Assembly: GCA_001769275.1 (NCBI GenBank)
Contig: MEOQ01000020.1
Span: 1 to 64,000 of the forward strand
Origin: Bacteroidetes bacterium GWF2_43_63
Lineage (GTDB): Bacteria; Bacteroidota; Bacteroidia; Bacteroidales; DTU049
Direction: 5' to 3'
Length of the DNA: 64,000 nt
Part shown: in pieces, positions 3,284-64,000 of the stretch
Numbering within the stretch: position 1 is the stretch's first letter
Layout of the letters: every line of letters begins with the position of its first letter
Translations under genes and position numbers: made by a program
The notes under the pieces: generated by a model
The model's input: the letters and a program-made list of their open reading frames with translations, nothing else
Told to the model about the DNA's origin: nothing
Database searches by the model: none

Positions 3284-4200
3284 TAGCGTGCTGCTTTTTG
3301 TTCGTTGAAAATCTTACGAATAAAAATCGCATTACTCACACCGGCATAAGTGGCATTGTTCTTCACTGCATCGGACATACCATAGGCAAAGGCATAACCG
3401 AAACTGAAGCTCTGTGCAGTGATTCCGGCGTTGAAAATAATTGATGAATTATTTCTGTACCCTGCGCCCACCCAAAATATCTTGCGGTATTTGAAATCGG
3501 CGCCAAGCTGAAATCCGAAAATTTTATTGCTCATTCCTGCAGCAGCCCAGCCCTGCAGCGAAGCATTTTCATTGAGCGAATATACATAGGCCCCCTGCAA
3601 TCCGATGACCGGTTTCATCTGGTTGTCTACAACATTATTCATGAATCCGTAACGGACAGGGATCAGCTGCGAAGCATTAAGTCCAATATAAAATTTATTC
3701 TGGCTCACCAGCGCTATGCCCGCAGATGCATTTCCTGCCGGCTGATGCATAGTTCCGCCTGCAAGTATGGGATCATCGTACTGATTGACTACCGCATCAT
3801 CTATATTGAATGTCATCTGATTGAAGGAGCCGGTCCCGTGAAACACCAGCTTCATGGCCTTTTCAGGAGCCAGATTCAATGAATATAAAAAAGAGAAATC
3901 GGCGGACAGCATCGTTGTAAGTCCTGCTTTTTCGCGGTTTATAACAAATGCAGCACCGGTGTTGTTACCAGTCGGCGCCGAGAGTGCGAGTGTTTGATAG
4001 ACAGGTCTGTTGCCGAATCCGTCGATGCGCGATCCGGTCGAGAAACTGAGTTGCGGAACACCGTACCACGCCGACAAGGCCTGATTCTGTGTTTCAGGCG
4101 CAACATTCTGAAAAGGGCTCAGGCTCTGGCCTACCTGAAACTGTGCAAAAAGAGCTGTGCAGATTAGCAGCGATATGCTGAAGATTATAATTCTTTTCAT
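3283..4200 (-). CDS. PorP/SprF family type IX secretion outer-membrane protein
   Basis: The 305-residue product starts with a signal peptide (MKRIIIFSISLLICTALFAQ) and has the alternating beta-barrel pattern of the PorP/SprF family. Family-like features are the early segment SLSPFQNVAPETQNQALSAW, a repeated strand pattern with Gly-aromatic turns, and a late FSFGYAFAYGMSDAV strand. In known systems such proteins sit in the outer membrane and attach or export a specific type B cargo encoded next door. Here the gene lies between the type B cargo (3 bases upstream) and the PD40 protein (1-base overlap), so a dedicated export partner role is the natural inference. Confidence 0.87.
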   Translation of the reverse strand: MKRIIIFSISLLICTALFAQFQVGQSLSPFQNVAPETQNQALSAWYGVPQLSFSTGSRIDGFGNRPVYQTLALSAPTGNNTGAAFVINREKAGLTTMLSADFSFLYSLNLAPEKAMKLVFHGTGSFNQMTFNIDDAVVNQYDDPILAGGTMHQPAGNASAGIALVSQNKFYIGLNASQLIPVRYGFMNNVVDNQMKPVIGLQGAYVYSLNENASLQGWAAAGMSNKIFGFQLGADFKYRKIFWVGAGYRNNSSIIFNAGITAQSFSFGYAFAYGMSDAVKNNATYAGVSNAIFIRKIFNEQKAAR

Positions 4201-4203
4201 GGC

Positions 4204-5502
4204 TTAGTATTTTACGTCAATACTGTTCTTGTATTCCTTTTCGATGATGCCGTCGTTCAGACGCACAACATAATAATAGACGCTGTTCGCAGGAGCATCA
4301 TTGTCGAGCGGATTCCACGCGCCTGCACAATCGGTGGTTTCAAACACCAGCTTGCCCCACGAATCGTAAATCTGCATGAAGAAACTCACGTAATTACAAG
4401 CGCCTTCTACATAGTAGGTATCGTTGAATCCGTCCCCATTGGGCGAAACAAGATTCGGCAACGTGAAGCAATCGCCCAGTTCGCTGTGAATAACAACGGT
4501 CGTTGTATTTGTACACGCGCTGTCGTCAGTAGCGGTATAATTATACACACCAGATACAAGGCCCGAAATCATCGTTCCTCCCGTAGCAGTAAATCCGTTC
4601 GGTCCTGCCCATGTGATATCGTAGTCCGGCTTCGGATCACCTCCTGTGATAAAAAGTGAAATGGAACCATAAGTGTCGTTGTCACAAATGTTGTGAACAA
4701 CAGTTTCAGACACCACCATGGGCGTTGCCGATTGATTAATGACAAAATCATAATATCCCTGGCAGGCAGTCTGGTTGTCGGTGATTGTAATGGTATAAGT
4801 TCCTGCAAGAAGCGCTACCCCACCCTGATAAATAGTATCGTTGGTTGTAAAGGAACCATCAACAAATTCTGTGTCCCATGTGTAGGAGTAATAATACCCG
4901 GTATCAGCCAACAGAGCTGTAACACTTGCATTTCCTTTGAGCCCGTTGCAAACATAACCAACCAGGTTTGATGTGTACGGAATCGTATCCACATTCGGAA
5001 TTACAATAGTGTCGAACACCATGCAGTTCCAGCTGTCTGTTACTTCAATTCGATAGGTTCCTCCGCGCACTCCGGAAATATCTTCAGTATAAAAGGTGGA
5101 ATCGAAATTTACATCACGCCAGAAATAGCTATATGCCGCAACACCGCCACTGACGCCGATATCGATAGCACCATTGTTGAAGCCGTCACAGGTGCTGGGG
5201 GTGATTGTCACTGTGGAAATGGCTATTTGTGCTGGCTGCGTGAGATCGTAGGAATAAACTGCAGTAGCCGCAAGCGCGTCGGTAACAGTGACACTGTAGG
5301 TTCCGGCACTCAGATTGTGAATGGCCTGGGTGGTCTCAGTTGTGTTCCACAAATAGGTATGCGGAGCAGTACCAAAGCCAGGCACGGCAATGACAGCACC
5401 GTCGGTATCACCAAAGCAGGTGAGGTCGTGGACTACCTGAATCTGCGCCTGCAACGGAAACAGGGACACTAAAAAGGCTATAAAAAACAAATACTTTCTC
5501 AT
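4204..5502 (-). CDS. SprB-repeat protein with type B T9SS C-terminal domain
   Basis: A secreted surface protein of 432 residues. It has a signal peptide (MRKYLFFIAFLVSLFPLQAQ), then about four SprB-like repeats of 75-90 residues, each with a T-C-x-G/N start and an LSAGTYSVTVTD-like end (near residues 20-95, 96-180, 181-265 and 266-345). The last 85 residues, from FTLPNLVSPNGDGFNDTY onwards, are the gliding-motility-associated (CHU-C, type B) sorting domain. An in-frame ATG seven codons upstream is less likely because it would put a polar extension before the signal peptide. It is the first gene of a unit with a PorP/SprF and a PD40 protein, so export by the type IX system through that partner is inferred. 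Confidence 0.88.
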   Translation of the reverse strand: MRKYLFFIAFLVSLFPLQAQIQVVHDLTCFGDTDGAVIAVPGFGTAPHTYLWNTTETTQAIHNLSAGTYSVTVTDALAATAVYSYDLTQPAQIAISTVTITPSTCDGFNNGAIDIGVSGGVAAYSYFWRDVNFDSTFYTEDISGVRGGTYRIEVTDSWNCMVFDTIVIPNVDTIPYTSNLVGYVCNGLKGNASVTALLADTGYYYSYTWDTEFVDGSFTTNDTIYQGGVALLAGTYTITITDNQTACQGYYDFVINQSATPMVVSETVVHNICDNDTYGSISLFITGGDPKPDYDITWAGPNGFTATGGTMISGLVSGVYNYTATDDSACTNTTTVVIHSELGDCFTLPNLVSPNGDGFNDTYYVEGACNYVSFFMQIYDSWGKLVFETTDCAGAWNPLDNDAPANSVYYYVVRLNDGIIEKEYKNSIDVKY

Positions 5503-50929: not shown

Positions 50930-50937
50930 TATATTTG
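50930..50937 (+). promoter_or_regulatory. -7 promoter box TATATTTG of the radical SAM operon
   Basis: TATATTTG fits TAnnTTTG and lies 35 bases before the ATG at 50973. TTG at 50914 is at a spacing of 13 bases, too short for a normal -33 box, so only the -7 box is supported. Confidence 0.5.
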
Positions 50938-50972: not shown

Positions 50973-51341
50973 ATGAAATTTCAAATAAAAAATCTGCGTC
51001 GAAAATTATTCGGATTTCTAAGTTTTTCAACTGCATTATTTGTGTTCCAGGCCTGTTATGGAGCGCCACAGGATGAAAGCACCGATGTGCTGTTTCATGG
51101 AACCATTGTTTCTGATTCAACCGATTTTCCGGTTCCCGGAATAAAAGTCAACGTAAACAGCGACCAATACGCTTTGACAGACTCAACCGGAACCTTCAGT
51201 TTTTATGTTCCTGCGGCTTCGCAATATCATTTGATTCTGACTGACGCAGACACATTGACGGACGGACATTATCTTGACAAGGACACCGTGCTGAGCGATA
51301 TTTCAACCTCTGGAATTACGATCAGAATTGATCCCAAGTAA
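50973..51341 (+). CDS. Radical-SAM-associated lipoprotein
   Basis: The 122-residue product has a basic N-terminus (MKFQIKNLRRKLFGF), a hydrophobic stretch and a lipobox-like FVFQAC, so Cys28 should be lipidated. Right after it comes YGAPQDES, then a small carboxypeptidase-regulatory-like domain (LFHGTIVSDSTDFPVPGIKV, YALTDSTGTFSFYVP, ILTDADTLTDG). This matches my recollection of a Bacteroidota family of lipoproteins always encoded beside a radical SAM/SPASM enzyme; the enzyme gene starts 12 bases downstream. It may be the substrate of that enzyme. The modification, if any, is unknown. Confidence 0.82.
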   Translation: MKFQIKNLRRKLFGFLSFSTALFVFQACYGAPQDESTDVLFHGTIVSDSTDFPVPGIKVNVNSDQYALTDSTGTFSFYVPAASQYHLILTDADTLTDGHYLDKDTVLSDISTSGITIRIDPK

Positions 51342-51353
51342 ACTATAATTCCA

Positions 51354-52406
51354 TTGTTCAAGCGCTTCAGACAAAAAAATCACGTTCGCTTTCGGCACAA
51401 CGAAGCGGCAATTCATGAACTTTCGTATCTGTTCTGGGAATGCACCCTGCGCTGCAATCTCAATTGCCGTCATTGCGGAAGCGATTGTTCGGTCAGCAGT
51501 CAGTTGCCCGATATGCCTTTTGCCGATTTTCTGAATGCAATCAAACCGCTGCAAAAACAATATAAAAAGGACTCCATCATTGTAATAATGACCGGCGGGG
51601 AACCACTGCTGCGAAGCGACCTGGCTGAATGCGGCATGCAGCTCAGACAAAACGGATTCCGATGGGGAATTGTTTCGAACGGTGTTTTGTATAACAAAGA
51701 CATGCACCACAAACTGCTGAATGCCGGCATGGGATCCGTAACAATCAGTTTAGACGGGATGGCCAAAACCCACGAATGGATGCGGAATTCACAACACAGC
51801 TTCGATGCCGCGCTGAATGCCATTAAGCTGATTTCTTCCAATCCACGACTCAACGCCGATGTGGTCACTTGTGTGAATCAGAAAAATATCGGCGAACTTG
51901 ATGAAATACATCAGACGCTTTTACAAACAGGCATTAAATCCTGGCGTCTGTTCACAATCACACCGATCGGGCGTGCAGCCACTGACAGAGACCTTTCGCT
52001 CACCGATGAACAATTGAAATTTCTGATGGAATTTATTGTGGAAAAGCGAAAGGACAAACGCATGAAAACCTCCTTCAGCTGCGAGGCCTGGACTGGTGTA
52101 TACGAAGAAAAAGTGCGTGACGGATTTTTCTTTTGCCGCGCGGGCATACACATCGCCTCTATTCTGGCCGATGGCAGCATATCAGCCTGCCCCAATGTTG
52201 ATCGAAGCCTTGCGCAAGGCAACATTTATAAAGATGAGTTTCTTGATGTGTGGAATAACAAGTTTGACATCATGCGAAACCGCAGCTGGACAAAAACCGG
52301 CACCTGCGCCAATTGCAAAGACTATTCAATCTGCGAAGGCAGCGGACTGCACTGGTGGCACGGCGAGCGGACAGAGGTGCTGCGGTGTTTGGGGAAGGTG
52401 AAATAA
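51354..52406 (+). CDS. Radical SAM/SPASM domain protein with partner lipoprotein
   Basis: The 350-residue product has the radical SAM cluster motif CNLNCRHC (C34, C38, C41), the GGEP motif (81-84), a TIM-barrel-like body and a SPASM-type C-terminal region with Cys at 261, 279, 318, 321, 327 and 345, which should bind extra Fe-S clusters. The family matures peptides or proteins by radical chemistry in the cytoplasm. The start is TTG at 51354, which gives the expected short leader before HELSYLFWECTLRC; no ATG is available. It forms a unit with the lipoprotein gene 12 bases upstream. What it modifies has not been shown. Confidence 0.9.
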   Translation: MFKRFRQKNHVRFRHNEAAIHELSYLFWECTLRCNLNCRHCGSDCSVSSQLPDMPFADFLNAIKPLQKQYKKDSIIVIMTGGEPLLRSDLAECGMQLRQNGFRWGIVSNGVLYNKDMHHKLLNAGMGSVTISLDGMAKTHEWMRNSQHSFDAALNAIKLISSNPRLNADVVTCVNQKNIGELDEIHQTLLQTGIKSWRLFTITPIGRAATDRDLSLTDEQLKFLMEFIVEKRKDKRMKTSFSCEAWTGVYEEKVRDGFFFCRAGIHIASILADGSISACPNVDRSLAQGNIYKDEFLDVWNNKFDIMRNRSWTKTGTCANCKDYSICEGSGLHWWHGERTEVLRCLGKVK

Positions 52407-52486: not shown

Positions 52487-53335
52487 ATGAAAAACGAAAT
52501 CATTATATACCAGCCCAATGAGCTTGCTTCACATATTGAAGTGAGGGTTGATGAGGATACGGTATGGTTGTCTCTTAATCAAATTGCGCAACTTTTTGAA
52601 AGGGATAAATCAGTCATATCAAGGCACTTACGAAATGTTTACAAAGAAGGAGAACTTTCCATGGAAGCAACTGTTGCAAAAAATGCAACAGTTCAAATTG
52701 AAGCAGGAAGGGAAGTGAAAAGAGAAATAGAATTTTATAATCTTGATGCCATTCTTTCGGTGGGTTATCGGGTAAATTCAAAACAGGGAACTCAATTTCG
52801 TATGTGGGCAAATAAAATACTGAAAGATTATCTGCTTAAAGGTTATGCCCTCAATAACCGAATGAACCGCATCGAAGAAAATGTTGATTCGCTGGCGAAA
52901 AAAGTGAAAGGCATCGATTTGCAAATTAAAGCAGCATTGCCTCCAAGCCAAGGTCTTTTTTTCGACGGACAAATTTTCGATGCATACACTTTTGTGTCTG
53001 AACTGATAAAATCGGCAAAACAGAGTATTGTTCTGATTGATAATTATGTTGATGAAACTGTTCTGACATTACTTTCCAAGCGAAAAAAGAGTGTTTTCGC
53101 TATTATTTATTCTTCGCAAATTACAAAACAACTGAAACTCGATTTGCAGAAACACAACCAACAATATGCGCCCATTGAATTGCTGGAATTTTCAAAATCG
53201 CACGACCGCTTTCTGATTATTGATGAGGTGGTTTATCATTTCGGTGCTTCGCTCAAAGACCTTGGCAAAAAATGGTTTGCGTTTTCGAAAATGGAAATGA
53301 CCTCCGGGGAAATTCTTTGCAAATTGAGGATTTGA
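52487..53335 (+). CDS. RhuM-like N-terminal domain fused to a PLD-like domain
   Basis: The 282-residue product has an N-terminal RhuM-like region (about residues 1-120; IIIYQPNELASHIEVRVDED, then TVWLSLNQIAQLFERDKSVISRHL, a helix-turn-helix, and YNLDAILSVGYRVNSKQGTQF), a short coiled segment (122-140) and a C-terminal region (about 160-282) with IVLIDNYVDETVLTLL and HDRFLIID (H249, R251, D256), the H-x-R-x4-D variant of the phospholipase D motif. Such a pair suggests DNA-binding plus a nuclease or phosphodiester activity, as in some mobile or defence-linked genes. It lies 80 bases after the radical SAM gene and has no clear terminator before it. Function is not known. Confidence 0.75.
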   Translation: MKNEIIIYQPNELASHIEVRVDEDTVWLSLNQIAQLFERDKSVISRHLRNVYKEGELSMEATVAKNATVQIEAGREVKREIEFYNLDAILSVGYRVNSKQGTQFRMWANKILKDYLLKGYALNNRMNRIEENVDSLAKKVKGIDLQIKAALPPSQGLFFDGQIFDAYTFVSELIKSAKQSIVLIDNYVDETVLTLLSKRKKSVFAIIYSSQITKQLKLDLQKHNQQYAPIELLEFSKSHDRFLIIDEVVYHFGASLKDLGKKWFAFSKMEMTSGEILCKLRI

Positions 53336-60878: not shown

Positions 60879-61532
60879 TCACAAACTTATTATTTCTTCT
60901 TTGATTGCATATCGAATCATGTCGGCAAGTGAATGCAGATCCAGTTTTTTCATGATGTTTTCTTTATGCGTTTCGACAGTTCTCGGGCTGATAAAAAGTT
61001 TGTCGGCAATTTGCTTATAACTATTTCCTTCGGCAAATCCCTTAAGTACTTCGGTTTCGCGATCGCTCAAAACCGCATTAATGCTGTCTGATTGAGCACC
61101 CTGCTGCTGCTTTTTAACATAGCTTTTGTACAGGATTTGTCCTATACTCATACTGAAAAACTGCTCAAAAGAAGCAACAGAAGCAATGGCATTGCGCAAT
61201 TCGGCCATGGAAGCATCTTTTGAAACATAGCCGTAAACTCCTTTTGTAATCGCTTTCAAAACGGTGTCTTCATCCATCATTCCTGAAAAAACCAGAAGAC
61301 GCGCATCGGGAAGCTTGCGAAGGATTTGATCGGCCAGATCAATGCCCGAACCATCCGGGAACTGAATATCAATTACAGCCACGTCAAACGGATTTTTCTC
61401 CATCAATTTAATAAATCCATCGATGGTAGCCGATTCAAAAACAAGCTCCAGTTCGTCATCTGCAAGACACATAAGCCGGATACCATCTCTTACAATGGTA
61501 TGGTCATCAGCAATGGCAACTCGTATTTTCAT
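60879..61532 (-). CDS. NarL/LuxR-type response regulator
   Basis: The 217-residue product has a receiver domain (about residues 1-122) with the phospho-acceptor D55 (VAVIDIQFPDGSG), acidic pair D9-D10 (IADDHT) and VSKDAS, and a C-terminal LuxR-type helix-turn-helix (about 150-210; LSDRETEVLKGFAEGNSYKQIADKLFISPRTVETHKENIMKKL). It is a DNA-binding regulator. It lies immediately after the histidine kinase gene (one base apart), so the two form a two-component pair. Confidence 0.95.
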   Translation of the reverse strand: MKIRVAIADDHTIVRDGIRLMCLADDELELVFESATIDGFIKLMEKNPFDVAVIDIQFPDGSGIDLADQILRKLPDARLLVFSGMMDEDTVLKAITKGVYGYVSKDASMAELRNAIASVASFEQFFSMSIGQILYKSYVKKQQQGAQSDSINAVLSDRETEVLKGFAEGNSYKQIADKLFISPRTVETHKENIMKKLDLHSLADMIRYAIKEEIISL

Positions 61533-61533
61533 A

Positions 61534-63261
61534 TCAAGAGCTATGGGCTAAAGGTAAAATAATTCTGAAAACACTCCCTTCTGACGATGTAGAAGCCAGA
61601 TGAATATTGCTGTTCATTTTTTTCAGCAATTCAGCGGAAATAAACAAACCAAATCCGCCTCCACGCGAAGGCGCATCGGGAGCCATTTCCCCGAATAAGC
61701 GAGCGGCGACTTCATCCTTAATCCCAGGACCCTGATCGCGTATATCAACAAAACAACTGCTATTTTCGGTAGTAACGCAGACAGATATTTCATTGCCGGC
61801 ATTGGAGAATTTTACTGCGTTCGATAAAACATTGCGAAATGCAATATGCAGCAATCCCCGATCGGTCATCACATTTATTTTTTCAGGGATATCCGTTTTC
61901 AGTAATATCTGCTTTTCATTCATTGCGCCATGACAGTCAGCAACAGCTTCATGAATGCAATCCGACAGAAGTACCGGAGCTGTTACTACTTTTGCACCAC
62001 TTTGTTGTGTAAGAGACCAGTGCAACAACCCGCGCAACATGTTTTGCAACTCGGTTGCTGAGATTTCAATATCGTTCAGATATTTCTTGATTTCCTGCGG
62101 CGGAAGCTTATCAACAGCCGTATTCAGCGCAGAAGTAATTCGACTGAAAGAAGTGACAGGCGAACGCAGATCGTGCGAAATAATAGCAAATAAGCGGTCT
62201 TTGAAAGCATTGACTTCTTCAAGTTGCTTGTTTTTCTCATCCAGCAGGCGATTAATTTTTTTACGTGTACTAATTCTGTACACAAAAAACAATGCTATCA
62301 CAACCGCAAAAACAAACAGGAAAATAAGGATATTTCTGGTATTGCGTATTGATTTTATGCGGCTTTCCTTTTGCAGCAAATCGGTTTTTTGCTCCTGTAT
62401 TTTACGTTCTTTTTCCGAAGTCTGGTAAAGAGCTTCATACTTTACCATGGATTCGTTTTTTTGCTGATTAAAAATAGAATCATTGTATCGGATATACAAC
62501 AATTGATTTTCATAGGCCTGTTTCCAGTCACCCATCATGGCATAGGTTTCACCAAGGTTTTTGTACCCCTGCCTGAGCTGATTGATCAGCCCGCTGCTGT
62601 CGGCAAGTTCAATTCCGCGGCTGACATATTGAATGGCTTTACTATGATTTTTCTGAGCATTGAAAAGAGCTCCCAGATTGATGTACATGAAAGATTCGGC
62701 ATCGGTATTTCCGGCCAGCCTGTAATATTTCAACGACTGCTCGGCATAAAATGCCACCGAATCAAGATTTTGCTCAACATAAAACATCGCTGCAAAGCCA
62801 TTGTACACATCGGCAAGGCCGGGGTAATAATTATTTTTCCTGAAAACAGCCACGGACAGACTATACTTCTCGCGGGCAAAATCCATTTTCCCCTCATCCA
62901 CATCGAGCGACCCCAATTTGTAATACTGATCGCCAATATTGATAGTGTCGCGCAACTGTCTGTATATTACCAACGCTTGTTCATAATAGGATCGGGATTT
63001 TTTCAGATCGCCAATGCGCATATAATCTGTTGCTATTCCATTATTGGCTGCAGCAAGCATTGCTTCATTACCCATCTTTTTTGCTAAGGCAAGAACTGTG
63101 AAATCAAGATTCAGAGCTTTGTCATAAGCCCCATTGCGGCGCTCTTCGGCGGCCTGTTCAAGCAATGAATCAAGCGCAGCATCATTCTGTCCAGTTCCGG
63201 CAAACGAAAATATGATTGTCAACCATACTGCAAAAACAATCCTGTTTATCAGCTTTGTCAT
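61534..63261 (-). CDS. TPR-containing sensor histidine kinase
   Basis: The 575-residue product has a signal-like first helix, a periplasmic array of about five tetratricopeptide repeats (about residues 40-260; MGDLKKSRSYYEQALVIYR-like units), a membrane helix (about 310-330; NILIFLFVFAVVIALFFVYRI), a HisKA domain with H in FAIISHDLRSPVTSF (about 365) and an ATPase domain with N box NVLSNAVKFS, G1 IRDQGPGIKDE and G2 GGGFGLFIS. It phosphorylates the partner regulator encoded next. ATG at 63273 would add four residues and is also possible. A promoter with TTG at 63312-63314, a 22-base spacer and TATATTTG at 63282-63289 drives it. Confidence 0.92.
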   Translation of the reverse strand: MTKLINRIVFAVWLTIIFSFAGTGQNDAALDSLLEQAAEERRNGAYDKALNLDFTVLALAKKMGNEAMLAAANNGIATDYMRIGDLKKSRSYYEQALVIYRQLRDTINIGDQYYKLGSLDVDEGKMDFAREKYSLSVAVFRKNNYYPGLADVYNGFAAMFYVEQNLDSVAFYAEQSLKYYRLAGNTDAESFMYINLGALFNAQKNHSKAIQYVSRGIELADSSGLINQLRQGYKNLGETYAMMGDWKQAYENQLLYIRYNDSIFNQQKNESMVKYEALYQTSEKERKIQEQKTDLLQKESRIKSIRNTRNILIFLFVFAVVIALFFVYRISTRKKINRLLDEKNKQLEEVNAFKDRLFAIISHDLRSPVTSFSRITSALNTAVDKLPPQEIKKYLNDIEISATELQNMLRGLLHWSLTQQSGAKVVTAPVLLSDCIHEAVADCHGAMNEKQILLKTDIPEKINVMTDRGLLHIAFRNVLSNAVKFSNAGNEISVCVTTENSSCFVDIRDQGPGIKDEVAARLFGEMAPDAPSRGGGFGLFISAELLKKMNSNIHLASTSSEGSVFRIILPLAHSS

Positions 63262-63281
63262 ATATAAGGGCAACTATCTGG

Positions 63282-63314
63282 CAAATATAACATAATTGTT
63301 AAACCAACATCCAA
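63282..63314 (-). promoter_or_regulatory. Promoter of the two-component pair
   Basis: Reading leftward: TTG (63314-63312), a 22-base spacer, then TATATTTG (63289-63282), matching the Bacteroidota -33/-7 consensus at the wide end of spacing. A further AATTGTTAAA box, like those at 5539 and 5582, lies between them. Confidence 0.6.
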
Positions 63315-63330
63315 ATTTAACAGCCCGGAA

Positions 63331-63369
63331 TATAAAACCGGAATCTTCTGCCTAAACAAAAGACTCCGG
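63331..63369 (-). terminator. Terminator of the partial cargo gene
   Basis: CCGGAATCTT (63338-63347) pairs with AAGACTCCGG (63360-63369), with one G-U pair, around a 12-base loop. On the minus strand TTTTATATTC follows. It lies 21 bases past the stop of the gene ending at 63390. Confidence 0.75.
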
Positions 63370-63389
63370 TCCAAAATTATCAAAATCAA

Positions 63390-64000
63390 CTATTTTTTGA
63401 TGAACTGTCCGGTTTTGACGGCATCAGCGTCTGAACATTGAATAAAATAATTTCCCGGTGCCAGTGAACTGATTTCAATTGTTTCATGAGATTTATATCC
63501 CGACTGAACCAATCGTCCTGACTGATCAAAAATATTATACCAATGGCTTCTGTCTTCATCAATACGAATAAAATCATCGGCCGGATTCGGATAAATGATC
63601 AATGTGTTTTCAGGTTCTGATTCCCGGCTTTCAAATCCAACACTTTGCAACTCGCCACGATAAAGAATCGCGCTGTTGTAACCAACCGCATACATTTTGC
63701 CCGAGGTCGTTTTCGTCAGATCTCCAAGCAGCCACCAGGTGTGATGCTCCATCTGATTCCAGTTTTGTCCATAATCAGTCGAATAAGCAATCAATCCCTC
63801 CATTCCGCAGGCAAACACTGTATCTGCCGAAGGACAATACAACCGGGATATCCCCAATGTCATGTTGGTTACTGATTCTGACCAGGAAAGGCCTCCATCG
63901 GATGAATACAGAAAACCTTCGTTATTCGTTCCCACAACTACATGCAAGCTATCAATGAAACAAACTGCTTTCAGATACATGCTGGTACCGGACGCAATAC
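63390..64000 (-). CDS. T9SS type A cargo with propeller repeats, partial
   Basis: The reading frame is open to the window edge, so the N-terminal part and start codon are missing. The visible 203 residues carry Ycf48/BNR-like beta-propeller repeats (YLKAVCFIDSLHVVVGTNNE, GFLYSSDGGLSWSESV, MEGLIAYSTDYGQNWNQM) and a C-terminal type A sorting domain (about the last 75 residues; IIYPNPADDFIRIDEDRSHW to VKTGQFIKK). It is a secreted type IX cargo. A terminator follows at 63331-63369. The full-length function cannot be judged from this part. Confidence 0.85.
   Translation of the reverse strand, partial: IASGTSMYLKAVCFIDSLHVVVGTNNEGFLYSSDGGLSWSESVTNMTLGISRLYCPSADTVFACGMEGLIAYSTDYGQNWNQMEHHTWWLLGDLTKTTSGKMYAVGYNSAILYRGELQSVGFESRESEPENTLIIYPNPADDFIRIDEDRSHWYNIFDQSGRLVQSGYKSHETIEISSLAPGNYFIQCSDADAVKTGQFIKK

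Follow-up and report, generated by a model that had tools for sequence, protein, structure and literature searches.

A Tyr-Gly tag on secreted proteins as the likely target of a Bacteroidota radical SAM/SPASM enzyme family related to spliceases

What does a radical SAM enzyme encoded directly behind a small lipoprotein do, and on which residue does it act? The question is raised by two adjacent genes in the window, as we call the whole stretch of 64,000 nucleotides analysed here (positions 1 to 64,000 of contig MEOQ01000020.1, Bacteroidetes bacterium GWF2_43_63). All features of the unit lie on the + strand. The lipoprotein gene (50973–51341) encodes 122 residues, and the enzyme gene (51354–52406), which starts with TTG 12 bases 3' of the lipoprotein ORF, encodes 350. 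The two-gene unit described in the initial annotation, including the CNLNCRHC motif and the six tail cysteines of the enzyme, was confirmed in the sequence. The −7 box then credited to the unit is also present, as a possible Bacteroidota −7 element (TATATTTG, 50930–50937, +), but it was given no weight as evidence, since TANNTTTG is no commoner in the window than chance would make it (57 occurrences against 57.2 expected). Upstream, on the other strand, lies a gene reading as ATP synthase beta, and downstream a RhuM-family gene (52487–53335; Virulence_RhuM, 8.6e-24). Both are outside the unit, and no conserved link of the RhuM-family gene to the enzyme family was seen within 400 bp downstream among the 120 related loci described below.

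The lipoprotein begins with a signal peptide (residues 1–27, 50973–51053; predicted helix 5–29) that ends in FQA before the lipobox Cys28, which is followed by YGAPQDES. The stretch Cys28-Tyr29-Gly30-Ala31-Pro32 (51054–51068), at the mature N-terminus, is an X-Tyr-Gly-x-Pro tag and the proposed modification site. The remainder (51078–51338) is a transthyretin-like or carboxypeptidase-regulatory-like β-sandwich in the AlphaFold2 model (pLDDT 89), for which Foldseek returns the transthyretin-like domain of carboxypeptidase D; the only Pfam matches are to CarboxypepD_reg, all of them sub-threshold. This sandwich is a common carrier. Against the NCBIfam model TIGR04134 (lipo_with_rSAM) the protein scores 21.6 bits, below the cut-off of 39.8. 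It is thus the equivalent of TIGR04134 in position and motif without being filed as a member.

The enzyme passes the cut-off of TIGR04133 (rSAM_w_lipo) with 457 bits against 425, and Pfam finds both Radical_SAM (9e-18) and SPASM (4.8e-08). CNLNCRHC (residues 34–41, 51453–51476) is the CX3CX2C motif for the SAM-binding [4Fe-4S] cluster; the next two residues are the GS of HCGS, which is specific to the clade. A Y250-E251-x3-R255 motif (52101–52118) is common to the families TIGR04103 and TIGR03913, whereas NirJ, MftC, PqqE and other families rarely have it or lack it. The SPASM-type tail (52134–52388) carries Cys261, 279, 318, 321, 327 and 345 together with an invariant His333. Both hallmarks of radical SAM/SPASM peptide maturases, CX3CX2C and a SPASM domain, are therefore present, the latter with six of the seven usual cysteines. 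The AlphaFold2 model (pLDDT 93) is closest to the solved folds of SkfB, SuiB, BlsE and CteB. No export signal was found in the enzyme sequence, so it should act ahead of Sec export, as had been proposed.

The pairing itself is not undescribed, as had first been supposed. It is named in NCBIfam as the 'hypothetical equivalog' pair TIGR04133/TIGR04134, with no function assigned, in agreement with the initial annotation, which spoke of protein families for this pairing in Bacteroidota; the literature searched held no paper for TIGR04134 or for the NCBI product name. Among 393 genomes of the window's order, TIGR04133 is found in 97, TIGR04134 in 80 and both in 69 at E 1e-5 (Fisher p 7e-42), and with TIGR04134 counted above its cut-off 55 of 58 genomes also have TIGR04133 (p 1.5e-36); these p values overstate independence, the sequences being related. 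In a phylum-wide sample the enzyme occurs in only 3 of 392 genomes; it is mainly in the window's order that the family is found. A single-sequence scan of genome contigs returned one locus. Some pairs are plasmid-borne, on records assigned to Parabacteroides and Phocaeicola as well as in the spirochaete Treponema saccharophilum, where the lipoprotein carries SCYGMP. At 120 TIGR04133 loci there is mostly no space between the Tyr-Gly-containing ORF and the enzyme gene (median gap 0 bp), and the two genes are neighbours far more often than expected by chance. The neighbouring lipoprotein is almost certainly the substrate of the enzyme.

The neighbours were surveyed at 120 non-redundant TIGR04133-type enzymes, with three very divergent enzymes set aside, at which no tagged neighbour was found. 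The adjacent upstream ORF contains Tyr-Gly at 108 of the 120 loci. YGxP is present in 93 of 118 adjacent ORFs, compared to 2.0 expected by residue shuffling, and in 61 of 706 control ORFs of the same loci. Most exceptions are explained by tagged ORFs in other arrangements: AQYG in a downstream type IX-like secreted protein (three loci), a downstream ACYGMPP lipoprotein (two loci), a short upstream ORF with ACYGSP (one locus), and a signal-less protein overlapping the enzyme gene with the repeat ECIYGPPPGFDDDYREIDDV (ECIYGPPP; one locus). The residue before Tyr is variable (E, C, K, V, M, A or L), while Gly after it was fixed by the search definition. A small residue (T, V, S or A) follows, and then Pro in 139 of 184 sites.

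When tag and signal peptide were masked, the 147 candidate ORFs fell into 26 single-linkage clusters. Several small clusters are passing neighbours, but a dozen or more are plausible as substrates unrelated to one another. The tag is carried by transthyretin-like lipoproteins, by coiled coils, by disordered YGVP-repeat lipoproteins in which it occurs up to three times (three YGxP tags at L014), by type IX-secreted proteins (AQYGAP) and by the signal-less repeat protein. The lipoprotein partner of the initial annotation holds for the window, but a lipoprotein nature is not essential to the system, whose substrates extend beyond TIGR04134. Across 40 window-type lipoproteins only Cys28, Tyr29, Gly30 and Gly73 are invariant, with Pro32 present in at least 90%; as these proteins were chosen for CYG, the invariance of the triplet is partly due to selection, which does not apply to the looseness elsewhere. 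From this looseness outside the tag and the diversity of scaffolds, the shared element is the tag and not the fold. The comparison of conserved lipoprotein residues that had been recommended thus makes Tyr29 of Cys28-Tyr29-Gly30 stand out as the candidate target, and we consider it very probable that the X-Tyr-Gly-x-Pro tag is what TIGR04133 enzymes act on.

Further loci of the same genome and its relatives show related arrangements. TIGR04133 is encoded once more in this genome, on a different contig, where the enzyme gene is preceded by four short lipoproteins with the tags TKYGVP, TKYGPP, TDYGV, TLYGVV and CYGVV and with no scaffold in common with the window lipoprotein. On contig C18 a 268-residue protein (3770–4576 of locus L163) scores above the TIGR04134 cut-off away from any enzyme gene. 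It has a signal peptidase I-type signal ending in AQYGAP and a C-terminal tail of the Por secretion system (4.8e-11), and from its sequence it is likely a further substrate, encoded in trans. A different radical SAM/SPASM enzyme, assigned to no family, is encoded on contig C22 (about 61380–63913; L216 20–2547, also L004), with GeoRSP_rSAM as its best NCBIfam match (87.9 bits, cut-off 400). Five short lipoproteins precede it, and in each of them Cys-Tyr tags are present, from one to three in number (TCYKPAP, SCYDMPA, MCYEIAV, DCYEIAA, MCYLPVI, TCYEPVA, PCYVPVK and TCYAPVR). Enzymes of this type occur in 11 of 148 relatives, with CYxx-tagged secreted or TonB-like neighbours at 8 of 10 loci examined; this appears to be a second system that modifies lipoproteins, parallel to the first but directed at a different motif. 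In genome G033 (L200, 1896–2846), an ACYGTP lipoprotein is intact and the next enzyme gene is internally deleted and frameshifted, owing to either gene decay or faulty assembly.

Two further lines of analysis were set aside. Loss of the tag along with the enzyme, considered as a natural experiment, is too thin, with one clean case and two contrary ones. In G701, which has lost the enzyme, VAGNGSPYAKF stands where relatives carry YGSPYAKF; G624 retains ACYGSP and AQYG with no enzyme detected, and G528 has the enzyme and a TIGR04134 homologue that lacks Tyr-Gly. The other line took the signal peptide as a leader for the enzyme. A position-specific score separating substrates on other scaffolds from background lipoproteins gave an AUC of 0.45, and then 0.79 only with a filtered background, spurious ORFs being present in the background.

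The closest known chemistry acting on such a tag is that of the splicease PlpXY, whose published site is X-Tyr-Gly. It acts on MYG and LYG, can use the tags PIRPLYGLPI and AVAAGYGVVFPG, and excises tyramine with a loss of 135.0757 Da to leave a ketoamide (PMC10533398, PMC11002830). The PlpXY product has been labelled by means of ketone or tetrazine probes (PMC10533398). The splicing reaction is reported to be broad in bacteria (reviews, PMC10373908). PlpX has been assigned to IPR026482 (PMC11002830). To tie splicease chemistry to sequence families, homologues were traced through plasmid records. A Nostoc enzyme above the TIGR04103 cut-off (853 bits) follows a nif11-leader precursor ending in GRGSIALYGLPPELF, with the core IALYGLPPELF, and precedes a 71-residue ORF. 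We take TIGR04103 to be the model behind IPR026482, which is supported by this Nostoc core. A link between TIGR04133 and splicing may already have been made in the principal survey of spliceases, by Scott et al. (2022; doi 10.1016/j.chempr.2022.09.017). An Agathobacter (Bacillota) homologue is preceded by a 68-residue ORF ending in GPVMYGTGVRM. X-Tyr-Gly sites are likewise found in the TIGR04133 neighbours, often with Pro three residues past Tyr as in LYGLP and with several sites per precursor, and one TIGR04133-linked lipoprotein (L077) contains IIALYGVPSSKF, which is nearly the Nostoc core.

The two systems also differ. TIGR04133 substrates have no nif11 or nitrile-hydratase leader, being secreted and mostly lipidated instead. 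The enzymes are about 350 residues long rather than 420, some 70 residues shorter, and have one SPASM cysteine fewer, CxGGC being replaced by CxGNGxH. No PlpY-like partner gene is conserved within 400 bp downstream at the 120 TIGR04133 loci, though a partner may be encoded at another place in the genome. With this cysteine missing and no conserved PlpY-like gene downstream, the reaction could differ from that of PlpX. A third family of the same enzyme clade, TIGR03913 (GDL motif peptide-associated maturase), also has several substrates in a row upstream. Its enzymes are preceded by DUF1843 peptides with a Tyr-centred motif (LYGG, PYGV, MYMA or LYAA), but these are small non-secreted peptides in which Gly after Tyr is not constant. 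DUF1843 peptides with YG, YM and YA stand by TIGR03913 enzymes at L172 2153–2866, L173 2028–2743 and L180 1037–1737, which suggests that Tyr-Gly is not the only site accepted in this branch.

Enzyme ancestry was then evaluated by scores, trees and shared residues. The window enzyme scores 108.8 bits against TIGR04103 (cut-off 725) and is not a member of that family. Among other NCBIfam models NirJ2, TIGR04053, NirJ and AhbD score best, with TIGR04103 only sixth, so that profile scores do not decide ancestry. In the tree, 17 TIGR04133 sequences and six PlpX-clade enzymes group together with 99/97 support against 12 others, a limited family sample that includes NirJ, a NirJ2-type enzyme, TIGR04347, TIGR04053, MftC and PqqE. 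A smaller tree gives the same grouping (99/96). The AU test rejects placement of TIGR04133 with the heme-type enzymes (p 0.0055) and with MftC (p 0.01). In the reverse comparison, each of the four PlpX-clade enzymes examined has TIGR04133 as its third- or fourth-best model, and for the outgroups this model ranks far down. Gly42 of HCGS, Trp197, Glu251 and Arg255 of YExxxR, and Ile291 are common to TIGR04133 and the PlpX clade and nearly absent elsewhere. The phylogeny shown here places TIGR04133 in a shared ancestry with TIGR04103, to the exclusion of the other radical SAM/SPASM families sampled.

By analogy with PlpX, the window enzyme is probably a splicease-like radical SAM/SPASM maturase dedicated to secreted proteins, which would excise tyramine at Tyr29. 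In the cytoplasm, it would recognise Cys28-Tyr29-Gly30-Ala31-Pro32 of the neighbouring prelipoprotein. Cleavage of SAM would generate a 5'-deoxyadenosyl radical that attacks Tyr29, from which a tyramine equivalent (about −135.07 Da) would be removed, and the carbonyl of Cys28 would be fused to the leftover carbonyl of Tyr29. Once the protein has been exported by Sec, Cys28 would receive its lipid from Lgt, and LspA would cleave in front of this residue. The proposal requires that both enzymes tolerate splicing at the lipobox Cys. The mature protein would then start with a lipidated, Cys-derived α-keto-β-amino acid (a ketoamide), followed by Gly30 and the transthyretin-like domain. Such an electrophile is best guessed to be a reversible covalent protease inhibitor or a reactive group at the envelope. 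Spliceotide products have been reported as protease inhibitors (PMC11117315, PMC10373908), from which an envelope-anchored protease inhibitor is our guess at the simplest role; inhibition of proteases by the spliced product is nevertheless a doubtful part of the proposal.

The chemistry is the step at which the most serious alternative enters. Tyr29 could be modified by another radical reaction, such as a C-C, ether or thioether cross-link (for example Cys-Tyr within CYG, or Tyr to a nearby residue), an epimerisation or an oxidative change, and the product would not be a ketoamide. Conservation of the tag fits any Tyr-directed reaction, SPASM enzymes catalyse many, and three of the nearest solved folds, SkfB, SuiB and CteB, are thioether or C-C formers; the SPASM cysteine of PlpX that TIGR04133 lacks points the same way. 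However, the residue before Tyr varies like the X of XYG with Gly fixed, a side-chain cross-link has no obvious need for this Gly, and the enzyme groups with PlpX-type families. We regard such other chemistry as a minor possibility, and tyramine excision as the probable reaction.

In a different reading the tag would serve to sort the lipoprotein or to be recognised by a partner protein or by the enzyme, and the chemistry would take place at another site of the lipoprotein or on a different protein. Bacteroidota lipoproteins have their sorting signals just after the lipobox Cys, where the tag lies in the window subfamily. But the tag also occurs deep inside other substrates or at their C-terminus, can be repeated up to three times, and is found on non-lipoproteins and on a protein with no signal peptide, and no other residue is conserved across the scaffolds, which makes this reading improbable. 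Least credible of all, and in our view very improbable, is a reading of the enzyme as a radical SAM protein of the cofactor type (heme d1/NirJ-like) with the lipoprotein as an unrelated operon partner. The window enzyme does match the NirJ2 and NirJ models slightly better than TIGR04103, but both tree and AU test put it in the PlpX-type clade, and the position beside tagged secreted proteins is near-universal.

What we add here is a target residue and a probable chemistry for the TIGR04133/TIGR04134 pair. With both named, a 'hypothetical' enzyme-lipoprotein pair becomes testable by one mass value. We lean slightly towards a broader picture, in which TIGR04133 enzymes would act alone, as spliceases that edit the backbones of secreted proteins in Bacteroidota and a few spirochaetes, the window subfamily acting at the lipobox Cys itself to give a lipidated α-keto-β-amino acid start, a ribosomal β-residue warhead on the envelope of anaerobic and gut bacteria. 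If the proposal is true, the family would provide a compact splicease for protein labelling that works with no partner protein. Backbone splicing would extend beyond small natural products to Bacteroidota proteins that are folded, lipidated or secreted by the type IX system, also in gut species, and these bacteria would have a new route to display electrophilic protease inhibitors.
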